A DNA stretch of 49,848 bases from Clostridia bacterium (GTDB lineage Bacteria; Bacillota; Clostridia; Oscillospirales; QAKW01): contig JAFZEA010000029.1 in NCBI GenBank assembly GCA_017560905.1, positions 1 through 49,848 on the forward strand, in the 5' to 3' direction. Position numbers and translations under genes: made by a program. Below, piece after piece: positions 1 through 15,135 of this stretch (position 1 is the stretch's first letter; every line of letters begins with the position of its first letter). The notes under the pieces are model-generated. The model did not search any database, was not told the origin of the DNA, and saw only the letters and a list, made by a program, of their open reading frames with translations.

Positions 1-117
1 ACCCATGGCAAGCAGTACGATGGCACCGAGCAACAGAGCCGCAACAACTGCCAAAAGATAAAAACAGCAACGCTTCCACAGCGGACAATAGTCACGCTTG
101 ACTATATGAAATCCCAT
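1..117 (-). CDS. ABC transporter permease, N-terminal part (BMP-type importer)
   Basis: Only the first 39 codons are in the window; the gene runs off the left edge. It starts at an ATG (117-115) behind a strong AGGAGG site lying inside the 3-prime end of the ATPase gene, whose stop is at 122-124, so the two are translationally coupled. The visible residues are a short basic cytoplasmic start followed by a hydrophobic run (YLLAVVAALLLGAIVLLAMG), the first membrane helix expected of a BmpC/NupP-type permease. The family call depends on position: a permease follows the double ATPase and BMP lipoprotein in this importer class. Confidence 0.75.
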   Translation of the reverse strand, partial: MGFHIVKRDYCPLWKRCCFYLLAVVAALLLGAIVLLAMG

Positions 118-8817: not shown

Positions 8818-10368
8818 TTAGTCCTCGGCAATTTCTTTTTCGTGGACTTCCTGAATTTCGGAATCATAGGAGAGGATGGGTTTAACATCCTTCTTACCCT
8901 TAACCTTACGATCAACATAGTTTTGAGTAATCTTCATAACCAGCGGGAAGAGCACAACAACACCAATCAAGTTGGGAATCATCATCAGACCGTTGAAGGT
9001 ATCGGAAACATCCCAAGCAATGGAAGAAGTCATCATTGCGCCACCCATAATGGTGCAAACGTGAATAACCTTAAAGACAGCGGTGCTCTTGGTACCGAAA
9101 AGATACTCCCAAGCCTTGGTACCGTAGTGAGACCAGCCCAGAACGGTGGTAAAGGCAAACAGGAACATGGCCACAGCGATAAATTTGGCGCCGATACCGC
9201 CCCAAGGGAATACACTGTTAAATGCGGCGCCAACCAGAGTAGCATCGGTAACGCCGGTGGGCATAATACCGGTCTGCACATCAAATACGCCGGAGGTCAG
9301 AACGATAAGAGCTGTCATGGTACAAACTACCATAGTATCGGCAAATACCTCAAAGATACCCCACATACCCTGCTTAACGGGCTCCTTAACGTTGGAGTTG
9401 GAGTGAACCATAACGGAAGAACCCAGACCTGCTTCGTTGGAGAACACACCTCTCTTGAAGCCCTGCGTTACAACCTTGCTGATGATGGCACCGATACCGC
9501 CGCCGACAAAAGCTTCGGGAGAGAAAGCGTTGACAAAGATTGCCTTAAAGGCAGGCAGAATCGCATCGTAGTTGATACCGATAATGATAAGACCGCCGAC
9601 CACATACAAAACAACCATAGTAGGAACGATCTTTTCGGCAACGTTTGCAATTCTCTTCAGACCGCCAAGTACGATCAAGGCGGTGAGAGCCATAATTACA
9701 ATACCGATCACCAGATGATACAGAGTAATGGGATTGCCGGGGCCACCGTACAGGGCAACGTCGGACAACGCTTTGATATCAAATGCGCTGACAACATTGG
9801 CAACGATCTTATTGACCTGACCCATGCTGCCGATACCGAAGGCCGCCAGCATAGTAAAGATGGAAAACAGAACGGCAAGTGTCTTACCGACCCACTTGCA
9901 GTTTTTCATTCTGCCCAGACCGTCCTGCAGGTAATACATAGCACCGCCGGACCACTCGCCGTTTCTGTTTCTGCGGCGGAAATACATACCCAAAACGTTT
10001 TCGGAGAAGTTAGTCATCATACCGAAGAAAGCGGCAATCCACATCCAGAACACCGCACCTGCACCACCGATGGCGATTGCAGCGGCAACACCGGCGATAT
10101 TACCGGTACCGACCGTTGCGGCCAGTGCGGTACACAATGCCTGGAATGCAGAGATAGAACCCTTTTCCTTGGTGTGACCCATAACCTTTTTACTGAACAT
10201 ACTGCCAATGGTATTTTTCCACCAGTGTCCCAATCTTGACACCTGGAATACCTTGGTACACAGTGTCATCAGAATACCGGTACCGATCAGCAGGATCAGT
10301 CCGGGCATACCCCATACAACACCGTTGACATCGGAGTTAAGATTCTCCAACCACTTCAAAAATTCCAC
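8818..10368 (-). CDS. sodium:alanine/glycine symporter (AGCS family)
   Basis: This 516-residue membrane protein with about ten to eleven helices shows AGCS features: the N-terminal LNSDVNGVVWGMPGLILLIG, the TVGTGNIAGVAAAIAIGGAG motif, GPGNPITLYH and SNEAGLGSS. It imports alanine or glycine with Na+. The start is GTG at 10368 with AAGGAG ten bases upstream. A tandem glycine riboswitch lies directly upstream on the same strand, strongly supporting glycine as a substrate or as the regulated pool. A bidirectional terminator follows. Confidence 0.95.
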   Translation of the reverse strand: MEFLKWLENLNSDVNGVVWGMPGLILLIGTGILMTLCTKVFQVSRLGHWWKNTIGSMFSKKVMGHTKEKGSISAFQALCTALAATVGTGNIAGVAAAIAIGGAGAVFWMWIAAFFGMMTNFSENVLGMYFRRRNRNGEWSGGAMYYLQDGLGRMKNCKWVGKTLAVLFSIFTMLAAFGIGSMGQVNKIVANVVSAFDIKALSDVALYGGPGNPITLYHLVIGIVIMALTALIVLGGLKRIANVAEKIVPTMVVLYVVGGLIIIGINYDAILPAFKAIFVNAFSPEAFVGGGIGAIISKVVTQGFKRGVFSNEAGLGSSVMVHSNSNVKEPVKQGMWGIFEVFADTMVVCTMTALIVLTSGVFDVQTGIMPTGVTDATLVGAAFNSVFPWGGIGAKFIAVAMFLFAFTTVLGWSHYGTKAWEYLFGTKSTAVFKVIHVCTIMGGAMMTSSIAWDVSDTFNGLMMIPNLIGVVVLFPLVMKITQNYVDRKVKGKKDVKPILSYDSEIQEVHEKEIAED

Positions 10369-10395: not shown

Positions 10396-10455
10396 GCAGA
10401 CTGCGGTGGAAAACACAGTCTGCAAAAAACAAAATTAACCCCTATAAGGGGATTT
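10396..10455 (-). terminator. expression platform of the glycine riboswitch (terminator-like hairpin plus second stem)
   Basis: Just after the second aptamer, CCCC-TTATA-GGGG is followed by an interrupted U tract (TTAATTTTGTTTTTT), giving a terminator-like hairpin. A second stem (GCAGACTG / CAGTCTGC, 10396-10423) lies between it and the ribosome site. Either could carry the genetic decision; the direction of control is not read from sequence. Confidence 0.55.
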
Positions 10456-10457
10456 TT

Positions 10458-10615
10458 GACTTTGTCCTTTTGCCTGAGAGATTAGCGCTATGCGCTTTGC
10501 ACCTTCGGCACCTGCAAGCAGGATTCTCCAAAGTTCTATCCGTTTACAGTCCCCATCCTGACGGACACCTGAGAGTGTTACTCCTTCGGCAGCGACAATC
10601 GCTCTTTCCTGCAAA
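10458..10615 (-). promoter_or_regulatory. tandem glycine riboswitch (gcvT element, two aptamers)
   Basis: On the minus strand the 5-prime aptamer has GGAAAGAGC, GCTGCCGAAGGAGTAAC, CTCTCAGG and GGGGACTG. The 3-prime aptamer has TTTGGAGAA, GTGCCGAAGGTGCAAAG, ATCTCTCAGGCAAAAGGAC and a closing ACTTTG/CAAAGT stem. GCCGAAGG, CTCTCAGG and AAAAGGAC are the conserved glycine-binding core segments. The linker between aptamers is short, as in cooperative tandem elements. It precedes the AGCS symporter. Confidence 0.95.
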
Positions 10616-10770
10616 CATCATATAGAAATATTCGGTTTTAAAAAACAATGGACACAGTATATCACAGCCAGTTATAAAAAGCAAGACTATTTTAAAAAAT
10701 TGTTCAAAAATGTCGACGGCAGGTGTATTATTGTCTTCCACAAATTGACAAAAAAATACTTTGAGAGTTA

Positions 10771-10799
10771 TTGACAGCATATATAAATTGTGATAAAAT
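10771..10799 (+). promoter_or_regulatory. strong sigma-A promoter of the structured RNA and pot leader
   Basis: TTGACA, exactly 17 bases, TAAAAT. It is the only strong promoter between the riboswitch and potA. Confidence 0.8.
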
Positions 10800-10805
10800 T
10801 TCAAT

Positions 10806-11115
10806 ATCGATACTTAGAAAGCGCAAAATGGGTCTTTCTCAAGCAAGATAATACGACCGCTGTGTTTCACAGCCGAGGCCATACGGACAGCCGGGTCAAA
10901 TGCCGATCATTGTACCTTTGGGTGCAGTTGGCAACCTTAGTTGCCTTATTGATTGAGTTAAAAGCTCAAATTTTACTAGTTGGTTACTTTACAACCAAGT
11001 GTCGCGGACACTACAACTTGTGAAACGGTCAATAAGAGTGGTAAAAGTATTTTGCTATATAGACTCTGACAATGTGTTTTTTCAGCCCCTTCGGGCAGAA
11101 AGTATCGCTTTTTTA
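10806..11115 (+). ncRNA. structured noncoding RNA of about 310 nt upstream of potA
   Basis: From the promoter's expected start to a T run there is no ORF with a ribosome site, but there are many local hairpins: GCTGTG/CACAGC, GGCAAC/GTTGCC, TTGGTT/AACCAA, GTGTC/GACAC and GCCC/GGGC. The 5-prime end CGATACTT (10808-10815) is the perfect complement of AAGTATCG (11100-11107), immediately before CTTTTTT, so a long-range stem closes the whole RNA and doubles as a terminator. It lacks the signature sequences of tmRNA, SRP RNA and RNase P RNA and is not a simple 6S-like rod. It may belong to a known Clostridial class such as the raiA motif; I cannot confirm that. Confidence 0.65.
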
Positions 11116-11126
11116 TTTTAACCGCC

Positions 11127-11155
11127 AAGCAAGTCAGTAAAGACTTGCTTTTTTT
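11127..11155 (+). terminator. terminator or attenuator directly upstream of potA
   Basis: AAGCAAGTC and GACTTGCTT form a perfect 9-bp stem followed by TTTTT, ending 27 bases before the potA start. No promoter fits between it and potA, so the operon probably depends on readthrough here. Confidence 0.85.
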
Positions 11156-11181
11156 ATTCTGCAAAACGGGAGAGAACGGCT

Positions 11182-12300
11182 ATGAAAAGAATCATCGAAC
11201 TGCAAAACATCAGCAAAGCCTTTGACGGCGAAACGGTACTGGACAACATATCACTGGAGATCTACGACGGAGAGTTTATCACACTGCTCGGTCCCTCCGG
11301 CTGTGGTAAGACCACCACGTTGCGTCTGATCGGCGGCTTTGAAACGGCAGACGAGGGCAACGTATATTTTAAAGGTAAGCGCATCAACGATGTGCCTGCT
11401 CACAAGCGCCACGTCAACACCGTATTCCAGAAATACGCCCTGTTCCCCCACCTCAACGTATTTGAAAACATTGCCTTTTCCCTGCGCCTGCAGAAGGTCG
11501 AGAAAAAAGAGATCATCAGCCGTGTCAAGGAAATTCTGGAGATGGTCTCGCTCAAGGGATTTGAACACAAAAACGTCACCCTGCTCTCCGGCGGTCAGCA
11601 GCAGCGAGTGGCAATAGCCAGAGCGCTTATCAGCCATCCCAAGGTATTGTTGCTTGACGAGCCGCTTGGCGCACTTGACCTCAAGCTGCGCAAAGATATG
11701 CAAAACGAACTCAAAAACATTCAAAAGCAGACCGGCATCACCTTTATCTACGTTACCCACGATCAGGAAGAGGCGCTGTCCATGTCCGACCGCGTGGTGG
11801 TTATGAGTGACGGTCGCATCCAGCAGATCGGTACGCCTACCGATATATATAATGAACCGGTCAATGCTTTTGTAGCCGACTTTATCGGTGAGAGTAACAT
11901 CGTAGACGGTGTGATGCCCGAGGACCAAAAAGTACGTTTTGCCGGTCATACCTTTGAGTGTGTGGACAGCGGCTTTGCCCCCGGCGAAGCCGTAGACGTG
12001 GTGGTACGTCCCGAAGACGTAGATGTCGTTTCCCCTGAAAAAGGTCATTTGAAGGGCACGGTGACCGCTGTCACCTTTAAGGGTGTACACTACGAGATCA
12101 TCGTGGATATCGGCGGCTTCAAATGGATGATCCAAAGCACCGACTATGCCGCCGAGGGCGACCATATCGGTCTGTTCATCGAGCCGGAAGCCATTCACAT
12201 TATGAAGAAATCCGAATACAGCGGTCTGTACGGCGACTACAGCTCCTTCTCTGACGAACTGGAAGAGCTGAGTGATGCGGACAGTGTGGAGGAAGATTGA
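11182..12300 (+). CDS. potA: spermidine/putrescine ABC transporter ATP-binding protein PotA
   Basis: This 372-residue ATPase has Walker A GPSGCGKT (37-44), Q-loop region [10 protein letters not shown], signature LSGGQQQR, Walker [13 protein letters not shown] and the switch His in [11 protein letters not shown]-terminal TOBE domain (about 290-345) is typical of PotA/MalK-type importers. The final 25 residues are very acidic. It drives polyamine uptake with the two permeases and binding protein that follow in one overlapping operon. GGGAGAG precedes the start. Its TGA overlaps the next start by one base. Confidence 0.95.
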
Positions 12301-13124
12301 TGATAAAAAAGAATCTTCTGCGCTCTGCCGCAGCCGCGCCCCATATCGTATGGAGCGTACTGTTTATTGTCTTTCCCCTGCTGTTTGTGGCCTACTTTGC
12401 CTTTACAGACGGAGCAGGCGCTTTCACACTGGAAAACATCACCTCTCTGGGCGAGCATACCCAGACCTTTGTGTTGTCCATTGCACTGAGCATCATCGCC
12501 ACCTTCATCTGTTTTCTGATCGGTTATCCGTTGGCTTATATCATCACCACAGCCCCCGAATCCCATCAGAAGTTCTATATGCTACTGCTGATGCTCCCTA
12601 TGTGGACTAACCTTTTGATCCGCACCTACTCCATGATGGCCATTATGGACGACGGTGGACTGATCAACAATATTCTTGCCGCTCTGGACTGGGGTCAGAT
12701 TCACCTCATCGGTACCAAGGGTGCGGTGGTATTCGGTATGGTCTACGACTTTTTGCCCTATATGGTGCTGCCCATCTACACCGTAATGAGCAAAATTGAC
12801 CGCAGATTGCTGGAAGCCGCCAGAGACCTTGGCTGCAGTCCCGTACAGGTATTACTCAAAGTTATCGTTCCCCTGTCTATGTCCGGTGTCATCAGCGGTA
12901 TTACGATGGTTTTCGTCCCCTCCATTTCCACCTTCTATATTTCTCAGAAGCTGGGCGGCGGTACCTTTGAACTGCTGGGTGATACCATTGAACGGCAATT
13001 TCAAAACGAAGCCACCTACAACGTCGGCGCCGCCATTGCACTGGTGATGATGGTGCTGATCCTGATTTCTTTAGCGGTAATGAACCGCTTCGGCGATGAC
13101 GATGAGGGAGGTGTGGTACTGTGA
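12300..13124 (+). CDS. potB: spermidine/putrescine ABC transporter permease PotB
   Basis: This 274-residue inner-membrane permease has six predicted helices and the binding-protein-dependent transport motif EAARDLGCSPVQVLLKVIVP that couples to PotA. The ATG at 12300 overlaps the potA stop by one base, with GGAGGA upstream; a TTG one codon earlier is less likely. It pairs with PotC to form the translocation channel. Confidence 0.94.
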   Translation: MIKKNLLRSAAAAPHIVWSVLFIVFPLLFVAYFAFTDGAGAFTLENITSLGEHTQTFVLSIALSIIATFICFLIGYPLAYIITTAPESHQKFYMLLLMLPMWTNLLIRTYSMMAIMDDGGLINNILAALDWGQIHLIGTKGAVVFGMVYDFLPYMVLPIYTVMSKIDRRLLEAARDLGCSPVQVLLKVIVPLSMSGVISGITMVFVPSISTFYISQKLGGGTFELLGDTIERQFQNEATYNVGAAIALVMMVLILISLAVMNRFGDDDEGGVVL

Positions 13125-13930
13125 AGCTGTTTTCCCGACTGTATCTTATCCTCATCTTTGCACTGCTCTACATCCCCATCGGTGTGCTGATCCTCTTTTC
13201 CTTCAATTCTACCGCCAATACCGGTATGTTAACAGGGCTTTCTCTGTACTGGTACAAGGAGTTATTCAGTTCACCCGACACCTTCGTCGCACTCAAAAAC
13301 ACACTGGTGCTGGCGCTTTCTGCCGCCTGCATCTCAACTGTCATCGGCACGGCTGCCGCCGTGGGCATATCCCGAATGAAAAGCAAATGGGCCAAAAAGA
13401 GCGTCCAGTCCGTCACCAATATCCCGATGATGAACCCCGATATCGTCACAGGCGTCTCGATGATGCTGTTGTTCGTTTTCGTGGGCGGTATGTTGGGATT
13501 GACGGAAAAACTCAGTTTTATCACCCTGCTGATCGCACACGTCACCTTTTGCCTGCCCTATGTCATTTTGTCCATTCAACCCCGTCTGCGCCAGATGGAC
13601 AAATCCTTGCCCGAAGCGGCCAGAGATCTGGGCTGTACCCCACTACAATCCTTTTTTAAGGTAGAGCTGCCCACCATTATGGGCGGTGTGGTCAGCGGAT
13701 TTTTGATGGCATTTACGTTGTCGCTGGATGATTTCGTCATCAGTTATTTCACCACCGGCAGTTCTTATCAGACCCTGCCGCTGATGATCTACTCTATGAC
13801 CAAAAAAGAAGTAAAGCCCGACATTTATGCCCTGTCCACACTGATCATCTTATCGGTACTGGTACTGCTGATCATCACCAACGTTATCTCCGCTCGCAAT
13901 GAAAAGCGCAGCAGAAAGGAGAAAAAATGA
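13121..13930 (+). CDS. potC: spermidine/putrescine ABC transporter permease PotC
   Basis: This 269-residue permease has six helices and the coupling motif EAARDLGCTPLQSFFKVELP. LYWYKELFSS near the N-terminus and SLDDFVISYFTTG near the C-terminus are characteristic of PotC/PotI proteins. It starts at a GTG overlapping the potB stop by four bases behind GGGAGGTG, and its own stop overlaps potD by four bases (ATGA), indicating tight translational coupling. Confidence 0.94.
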   Translation: MKLFSRLYLILIFALLYIPIGVLILFSFNSTANTGMLTGLSLYWYKELFSSPDTFVALKNTLVLALSAACISTVIGTAAAVGISRMKSKWAKKSVQSVTNIPMMNPDIVTGVSMMLLFVFVGGMLGLTEKLSFITLLIAHVTFCLPYVILSIQPRLRQMDKSLPEAARDLGCTPLQSFFKVELPTIMGGVVSGFLMAFTLSLDDFVISYFTTGSSYQTLPLMIYSMTKKEVKPDIYALSTLIILSVLVLLIITNVISARNEKRSRKEKK

Positions 13931-15135
13931 AAAGACTTTTTTCCTTTCTCTTTATTTTGATCCTCTGCCTTTCTATGGTCGGCACTGTCAGTGCCGCACC
14001 CGAAACCATCGTCCTCAACGTATACAACTGGGGTGAGTATATCTCGGATGGCAGTGAAGGGACTATGAACGTCAATGCGGAATTTGAAAAGTATTATGAG
14101 CGTTCCTTCGGACAAAAGGTACGGGTCAATTACACCACCTATGCCAGCAACGAGGATATGTACAACAAGCTCAGCAGCGGCGCCGCCGTTTACGATGTGA
14201 TCATCCCCTCGGACTATATGATCCAGCGCATGATCACTGAGGATATGCTCCGCCCCCTGGACTTTTCCAACATCCCCAATTACCGCTACATTGACCCCAA
14301 TTATACCAATCTTTATTACGATCCCGACAATCTTTATTCTATCCCCTACACCTACGGTATGGTCGGCATTATCTACAATACCTCTATGGTGGATGCCGAG
14401 GACATCACTGACTGGGACTGTATGTGGAACAAAAAGTATGCGGGCAAAATCCTGCAGTTTAACAACCCCCGTGACGGTATGGCCACCGCTATGTTCAAGC
14501 TGGGTGTGGACATCAACACCACAGACAAATCCGAGCTTCGCGCCGTCACCGAGGAGCTTAAAAAGCAAAAGCCGCTGATTCAAAGCTACGTTATGGACGA
14601 GATCTTTAACAAAATGAAGACCGGCTCTGCCGCCATCGCCCCCTACTATGCCGGTGACTTTCTGGCGATGTATGAGAGCAACGAAGCGCTGGCCTTTGTC
14701 TACCCCGAAAGCGGTACCAACGTATTTGTCGATGCCTTCTGCATCCCCAAAATCAGCCGCTATCCCGATGTAGCGGAAGCCTATATCAACTTTATGCTTT
14801 CCAAGGAACCCGCCATTGCCAACGCAGAATATCTCTACTATGCCAGTCCCAACACTCTGGTCACCCACGACGAGGGTTATATGGAGACTATGAACGACAT
14901 CCACCCCGATGCGATGGATATTCTCTATCCGAAGGACACAGACTTTAAGACGCAATACTATCACAACTTAGATGCCGATACACTGGCCTATTCCAACGAG
15001 CTGTGGGAGGAGCTGAAAATTCAGAACTCCATCGAGCCATGGATCCTCTGGACGGCAGGTATTATACTGGCATTCGTGGTGGGACTGCTGCTCTTTAAAA
15101 CCATTCGCTCGGCCTATCGAGAAAAGCAATACTAA
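13927..15135 (+). CDS. potD: polyamine-binding protein PotD with C-terminal membrane anchor
   Basis: The 402-residue protein has a secretory signal (ILCLSMVGTVSA, cleavage after SA) and then NVYNWGEYIS, the standard PotD/PotF start. VNYTTYASNEDMYNKL, VIIPSDYMI, SIPYTYGMVGIIYN and the NNPRDGMATAMFKLG segment fit the polyamine-binding fold. There is no lipobox Cys. Instead residues about 374-395 (EPWILWTAGIILAFVVGLLL) form a membrane helix followed by a basic tail, so the protein is probably held at the outer face by its C-terminus. It is last in the pot operon and followed by a strong terminator. Confidence 0.93.
   Translation: MKRLFSFLFILILCLSMVGTVSAAPETIVLNVYNWGEYISDGSEGTMNVNAEFEKYYERSFGQKVRVNYTTYASNEDMYNKLSSGAAVYDVIIPSDYMIQRMITEDMLRPLDFSNIPNYRYIDPNYTNLYYDPDNLYSIPYTYGMVGIIYNTSMVDAEDITDWDCMWNKKYAGKILQFNNPRDGMATAMFKLGVDINTTDKSELRAVTEELKKQKPLIQSYVMDEIFNKMKTGSAAIAPYYAGDFLAMYESNEALAFVYPESGTNVFVDAFCIPKISRYPDVAEAYINFMLSKEPAIANAEYLYYASPNTLVTHDEGYMETMNDIHPDAMDILYPKDTDFKTQYYHNLDADTLAYSNELWEELKIQNSIEPWILWTAGIILAFVVGLLLFKTIRSAYREKQY

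Follow-up and report, generated by a model that had tools for sequence, protein, structure and literature searches.

The rare SAM-I variants that control ldcC, speE, and speB are a validated spermidine riboswitch (Salvail et al. 2023, PMC10853860). Salvail et al. call them the first definitive spermidine riboswitch and hold that further polyamine classes must exist (PMC10853860). Other candidate RNA regulators near polyamine genes are the odc1 motif and a Veillonella potE-associated candidate, the only two reported under polyamine terms in the genome-wide motif surveys consulted here (PMC8632094). In Streptococcus pneumoniae, an RNA named F59, SN20, srn235, or Spd_sr49 sits between SP0915 and SP0916 in the same orientation as SP0916. 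Two reports give its length first as 82 nt and later as 327 nt and, in the passages on this RNA, treat it as an sRNA (PMC3395615, PMC12323649); polyamines go unmentioned in PMC12323649. The corresponding Rfam family, RF02440 (SpF59 sRNA / ldcC RNA), is a 54-nt model with a gathering cut-off of 37.2 bits. The label "ldcC RNA" shows that someone had tied this RNA to a lysine decarboxylase gene. In a search of open-access journal papers, neither "ldcC RNA" nor "ldcC motif" occurred in any paper found, nor did a description of the RNA as a riboswitch; earlier recognition elsewhere is possible.

The window analyzed here is a 49,848-nt stretch of DNA from a Clostridia bacterium (contig JAFZEA010000029.1). 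It contains a structured RNA on the plus strand at about 10806–11118, judged real (fold z = −3.8), that is most likely the 5′ leader of a potABCD polyamine-import operon. The RNA is likely to be a member of a widespread, mostly uncatalogued class of transcription-terminating OFF riboswitches for Bacillota polyamine genes.

An Rfam scan of the window returned two matches, the glycine riboswitch aptamer RF00504 on the minus strand (10452–10541) and RF02440 on the plus strand (10854–10906; cmscan, 64.3 bits), and a permissive-mode scan added nothing further credible. The RF02440 region contains covarying pairs, and its model spans about one sixth of the window RNA. Searched against Rfam, the universal core of the RNA (TTATTGATT...CTTGTGAAACGGTCAATAA) gave zero matches. 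A sequence-only reading of this DNA had put the element forward as possibly undescribed unless a confident Rfam match made it known. Such a match exists at 10854–10906, and in the strict sense "undescribed" is wrong, yet the match covers only that sixth, carries an sRNA label, and is missing in some homologs. At the gathering threshold, RF02440 is absent in 8 of 14 scanned loci, and a search for the side-domain motif CGGACAG did not find it in 28 of 120 loci among the matches listed. Some of these CGGACAG-negative loci have a diverged side domain, and several (among them L013, L024, L025, L045, and L069) lack the domain by eye. The core, and not the SpF59 domain, is the universal part of the RNA. 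RF02440 amounts to no more than an optional side domain within a conserved RNA of far greater size, and its model contains neither the universal core nor the terminator, antiterminator, or leader function. What Rfam lists as an sRNA family can, as this case shows, be one piece of a more extensive regulatory leader.

Comparison with the other described systems sets the window RNA further apart. It resembles the SAM-I-variant spermidine riboswitch in the genes concerned and in termination ahead of polyamine genes, but its core sequence and architecture are unrelated and its distribution is far broader; neither SAM-I nor any other riboswitch family matched it, permissive mode included. The odc1 and potE candidates have been reported from alpha-proteobacteria and Veillonella only, where they precede odc1 and potE. 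The raiA motif RNA (RF03072, ModT), which the sequence-only reading had offered as a possible identity, shares with the window RNA its large size, structured fold, occurrence in Clostridia, and separate promoter, but it is a free-standing ncRNA. That identity falls away, as RF03072 gave no match in the window genome even at E 10. The same reading correctly set the element apart from tmRNA, SRP, RNase P, and glycine aptamers; RF00504 does not match the plus strand of the element and occurs only on the minus strand. This minus-strand aptamer (62 bits) precedes a gene of the sodium:alanine symporter family (8818–10368, minus strand; Pfam PF01235), and a stretch at about 10545–10625 has the look of a second glycine aptamer by eye, below threshold.

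Transcription of the leader is predicted to start from a sigma-A type promoter at 10771–10799 on the plus strand, with TTGACA at 10771–10776, a 17-nt spacer, and TAAAAT at 10794–10799. A TTGACN-15..19-TANNNT promoter occurs in the matching region of 73 of 120 homologs among the matches listed, compared with 2 of 120 shuffled sequences. Folding of 10790–11125 gives −99.4 kcal/mol, whereas shuffled versions average −78.2; the z-score is −3.84, and 0 of 100 shuffles fold as low. Sequence homologous to the whole element is conserved in dozens of genomes with significant covariation, so the structure goes beyond chance. The sequence-only reading was thus right in seeing an RNA that is large, structured, and transcribed from a promoter of its own, and its further view that the element holds no credible open reading frame agrees with a scan of the plus strand, which found none of at least 80 aa. 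It was also right that a long-range stem closes the RNA. An 8-bp perfect pairing does join CGATACTT (10808–10815) to AAGTATCG (11100–11107), followed by CTTTTTT, but comparison of own with swapped duplexes, in which 392 of 5000 permutations reached an energy as low, indicates no family-wide conservation, and the conserved long-range stem is a different helix, P1.

The P1 5′ strand (10830–10854) comprises GGGTC at 10830–10834 and AGCAAGATAATAC at 10842–10854, and the 3′ strand (11047–11068) comprises GTATTTTGCT at 11047–11056 and GACTC at 11062–11066. The segment 10842–10854 pairs with 11047–11056, and 10830–10834 pairs with 11062–11066. In the inner part of P1, own duplexes have −7.9 kcal/mol against −5.2 for swapped ones (0 of 5000 permutations). 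A local hairpin, AGAGT 11035–11039 with ACTCT 11063–11067, competes with P1. Hairpin B (GGCAAC/GTTGCC, 10930–10945), which is supported by covariation, is followed by the universal core at 10946–11035. The core is supported by a covariance-model match, near-invariant strands, and an excess of standard pairs, and includes the stretch CTTGTGAAACGG. Its outer pairing joins TTATTGA (10946–10952) to TCAATAA (11029–11035), its inner pairing joins TTTTACTAGTT (10971–10981) to AACTTGTGAAA (11015–11025), and internal hairpins lie at 10953–10969, 10982–10996, and 10999–11011.

Helices of the RNA covary across the collected homologs. The RNAalifold structure of a 60-sequence alignment has 44 pairs, 21 of them with two-sided changes. 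Against a tree-based null of 20 simulations, produced with our own R-scape-like script, seven pairs reached E ≤1, every one inside predicted helices; the GACC/GGGTC closing pair scored 79.5 against a null maximum of 49.6, and hairpins A and B also covary. In a 64-sequence core alignment, 88.8% of pairs are standard compared with 33–47% in slid controls, and covariation exceeds that of all shuffles (0 of 500). Since the core strands are nearly invariant, their pairing is supported mainly by complementarity and one-sided changes, such as GGTCAATAA becoming GATCAATAA or AATCAATAA opposite TTATTGATT, where a G-U pair becomes A-U. A pseudoknot between GCCG (in CTGCCGA) and the CGG of ACGGTCAATAA was considered and set aside, as covariation support was absent.

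Conservation around RF02440 matches in related genomes extends over ~300 nt, well past the Rfam model, and the most conserved stretch, the 18-mer TTGTGAAACGGTCAATAA, lies outside that model. Genome contigs searched for this 18-mer yielded at least 118 loci, which among the matches listed span Streptococcus, Bacillus, Paenibacillus, Lachnospiraceae, Oscillospiraceae, Acidaminococcus, and others; viral contigs scanned for the same 18-mer gave no match. A covariance model of the core, R1, was built to avoid exact-pattern bias. It returned 20 matches in 398 genomes of the phylum, 39 in 291 of the class, 27 in 300 of a second class, and 6 in 46 of a third. Its match in the window, which was among its source sequences, covers 10920–11039 (E 2.2e-24). 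The window genome (60.5% complete) holds a single copy of the RNA, and in a same-genus genome the RNA also precedes a potA gene. The link between S. pneumoniae F59 and this family runs through the Rfam name and streptococcal homologs in S. suis (L087), S. taonis (L026), and S. entericus (L079). The 54-nt SpF59 motif is present in the window (64 bits), and the larger RNA occurs in streptococci, S. suis among them, before a decarboxylase-speE-carboxynorspermidine synthase operon.

Downstream genes were typed by tblastn with reference proteins named through NCBIfam and Pfam. A polyamine gene comes next on the same strand in 119 of 122 pattern-found loci (among the matches listed, with enough sequence) and in 74 of 74 distinct model-found loci, two sets that share species and in which related genomes are not independent. 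The first gene in the pattern-found loci among the matches listed is an Orn/Lys/Arg decarboxylase (66), a carboxy(nor)spermidine synthase (25), speD (19), or potA (9), and in the model-found loci the corresponding counts are 20, 29, 12, and 13. These four families are mutually unrelated. Common operons are decarboxylase-speE-speB, decarboxylase-speE-carboxynorspermidine synthase, and carboxynorspermidine synthase-nspC. On the upstream sides, the same references matched in only 4 loci among the matches listed, all PotA-like. As is generally expected of a metabolite riboswitch, a structured domain is thus conserved in the 5′ UTRs of genes linked by function. Three loci among the matches listed depart from the polyamine context. 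One (L052) is a chance occurrence of the 18-mer inside a Mangrovimonas coding gene and was discarded, and the other two are real copies, which count against the polyamine reading. In one of these (L128), core and terminator stand ahead of a gene for a 715-aa exported protein; in the other (L116), a core-like sequence without a clear terminator precedes a 208-aa protein.

In the window, potA (polyamine ABC transporter ATPase; 11182–12300, plus strand) matches NCBIfam NF043075 at 560 bits (cut-off 550) and TIGR01187 at 368 (cut-off 355.6), and has a ribosome-binding site, GGGAG, at 11168–11172. It is followed on the same strand by the permease genes potB (12297–13124) and potC (13121–13930) and the substrate-binding protein gene potD (13927–15135), for which the NCBIfam PotB, PotC, and PotD models are the best matches (E 6e-58, 3e-70, and 4e-46, respectively), each under its equivalog cut-off.

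This context bears directly on the proposal that the RNA is a free-standing, trans-acting sRNA merely adjoining polyamine genes, as SpF59/F59/SN20/srn235 has been catalogued and as the family type of RF02440 implies. The S. pneumoniae catalogue entries of 82 to 327 nt (PMC3395615, PMC12323649) and the RNA's own promoter and terminator would fit such an sRNA. An attenuated leader also yields short transcripts, however, and the position of the RNA directly before a same-strand gene from one of the four polyamine families, together with the coupling of terminator arm sequence to the RNA core, speaks for an mRNA leader. A free-standing ncRNA, which the sequence-only reading had preferred over a leader, is rejected because a co-directional polyamine gene follows in essentially every homolog, and the trans-acting sRNA is accordingly very improbable. 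Transposon mutants of srn235/SN20 have a lung fitness of 0.05 (PMC3395615), a value that may reflect disturbance of the polyamine operon downstream instead of loss of an sRNA.

The strong intrinsic terminator of the window leader (AAGCAAGTC/GACTTGCTT plus a U-run; −11.7 kcal/mol) occupies 11127–11155 on the plus strand. Its hairpin follows the end stem, directly ahead of the potA ribosome-binding site and about 27 nt upstream of the potA start. Among the matches listed, an intrinsic terminator lies between core and gene in 117 of 121 leaders, compared with 38 shuffled and 34 antisense sequences, and the leader terminators have a median of −19 kcal/mol. Complementarity links the terminator 5′ arm to the core-closing strand of the RNA, which is the arm's best partner in 54 of 117 loci among the matches listed. 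In the same matches, the core-arm duplex reaches −13.42 kcal/mol for own sequences, −10.38 for swapped ones, and −6.66 for shuffled ones (0 of 5000 permutations), and 37 divergent loci taken separately led to the same outcome. Most control RNA segments gave no signal; weak signals came from the P1 3′ strand, with 9 to 58 of 5000 permutations, and from a segment around +20. Compensatory pairs can be seen by eye, including TACACAGC/GCTGTGTA in L004, ATCATC/GATGAT in L046 and L055, and AAGGTC/GACCTT in L069. Locus-specific complementarity of this kind would be expected if an antiterminator competed with the core. In the window, the putative antiterminator strand ACTTGT (11016–11021, plus strand) could pair with GCAAGT at 11129–11134 in the terminator 5′ arm, a weak duplex of about 6 bp (−6.7 kcal/mol). 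An expression platform coupled by mutually exclusive pairing is thus found at the family level and is weak in the window copy. The motif AAGCAAG occurs twice in the window, in the P1 5′ strand (10841–10847) and in the terminator 5′ arm (11127–11133), so that the P1 3′ strand (TTTTGCT) could pair with either.

Counting against the switch, equilibrium folding of transcripts ending before the terminator 3′ arm favored the closed core, and the antiterminator formed at just 5 of 109 loci. Either the model of the switch lacks something, or kinetics, a ligand, or a protein influences the outcome. One rival reading takes the RNA to be a cis-acting attenuator of the same genes that works through a protein, such as an RNA-binding regulator or ribosomal protein, or through the general influence of polyamines and Mg2+ on folding, with no dedicated small-molecule aptamer. 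Gene context, terminators, and core-arm coupling fit this arrangement equally, and polyamines bind RNA broadly (PMC10853860). Dozens of near-invariant core positions across distant Bacillota are typical of ligand aptamers, though, and no partner gene is linked to every locus, making an attenuator of this kind rather unlikely. The terminator and competing pairings would also suit a ribosome-mediated attenuator with a leader peptide, or a T-box. Against these, the Rfam scans contain no T-box match, the search for leader frames of at least 80 aa came back empty, a 5′-side ATG is present in some homologs (CATGCAAATAT) and missing in others (CAAGCAGATAA), and the invariant parts are structured RNA, so that both are highly improbable.

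The riboswitch reading is built on homology, gene association, orientation, terminator position, covariation, and locus-specific core-arm complementarity, all of which have computational support; from these we infer direct ligand binding, the identity of the ligand, and the direction of the response. RNA polymerase would start just past 10771–10799 and produce a sensor of ~240 nt containing P1, the optional SpF59 domain, hairpin B, and the invariant core. With polyamine plentiful, most likely spermidine, the core would be stabilized with AACUUGUGAAA (11015–11025) paired to UUUUACUAGUU (10971–10981), the terminator at 11127–11155 would form, and potABCD would be off. With polyamine scarce, the AACUUGU strand and its flank would pair with the terminator 5′ arm, and transcription would continue into potABCD. 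An OFF switch is suggested by this geometry, in which a stable core is predicted to free the terminator.

Spermidine is the common end product or cargo of the decarboxylase, SpeD, SpeE, the carboxyspermidine route, and PotABCD. Because these share spermidine, feedback by spermidine is the simplest reading, and it is probably the polyamine sensed; arginine, lysine, or SAM as the ligand would leave potABCD unexplained. The RNA is a strong candidate for a further polyamine riboswitch class, broadly distributed, consistent in its gene context, and with a visible expression platform, features that make the prediction directly testable. The evidence leans toward a new, widespread, natural polyamine (spermidine) riboswitch class with a large, nearly invariant core, serving biosynthesis and import in Bacilli, Clostridia, and Negativicutes and long filed as a Streptococcus sRNA. 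In one locus (L022, about 755–870), a strongly reduced version of the RNA, TTATTGATTATTATACATCAGCTTGTGAAACGGTCAATAA, lies ahead of speD without most of the helices, and may be a minimal form in which GATGTAT could pair with ATACATC.
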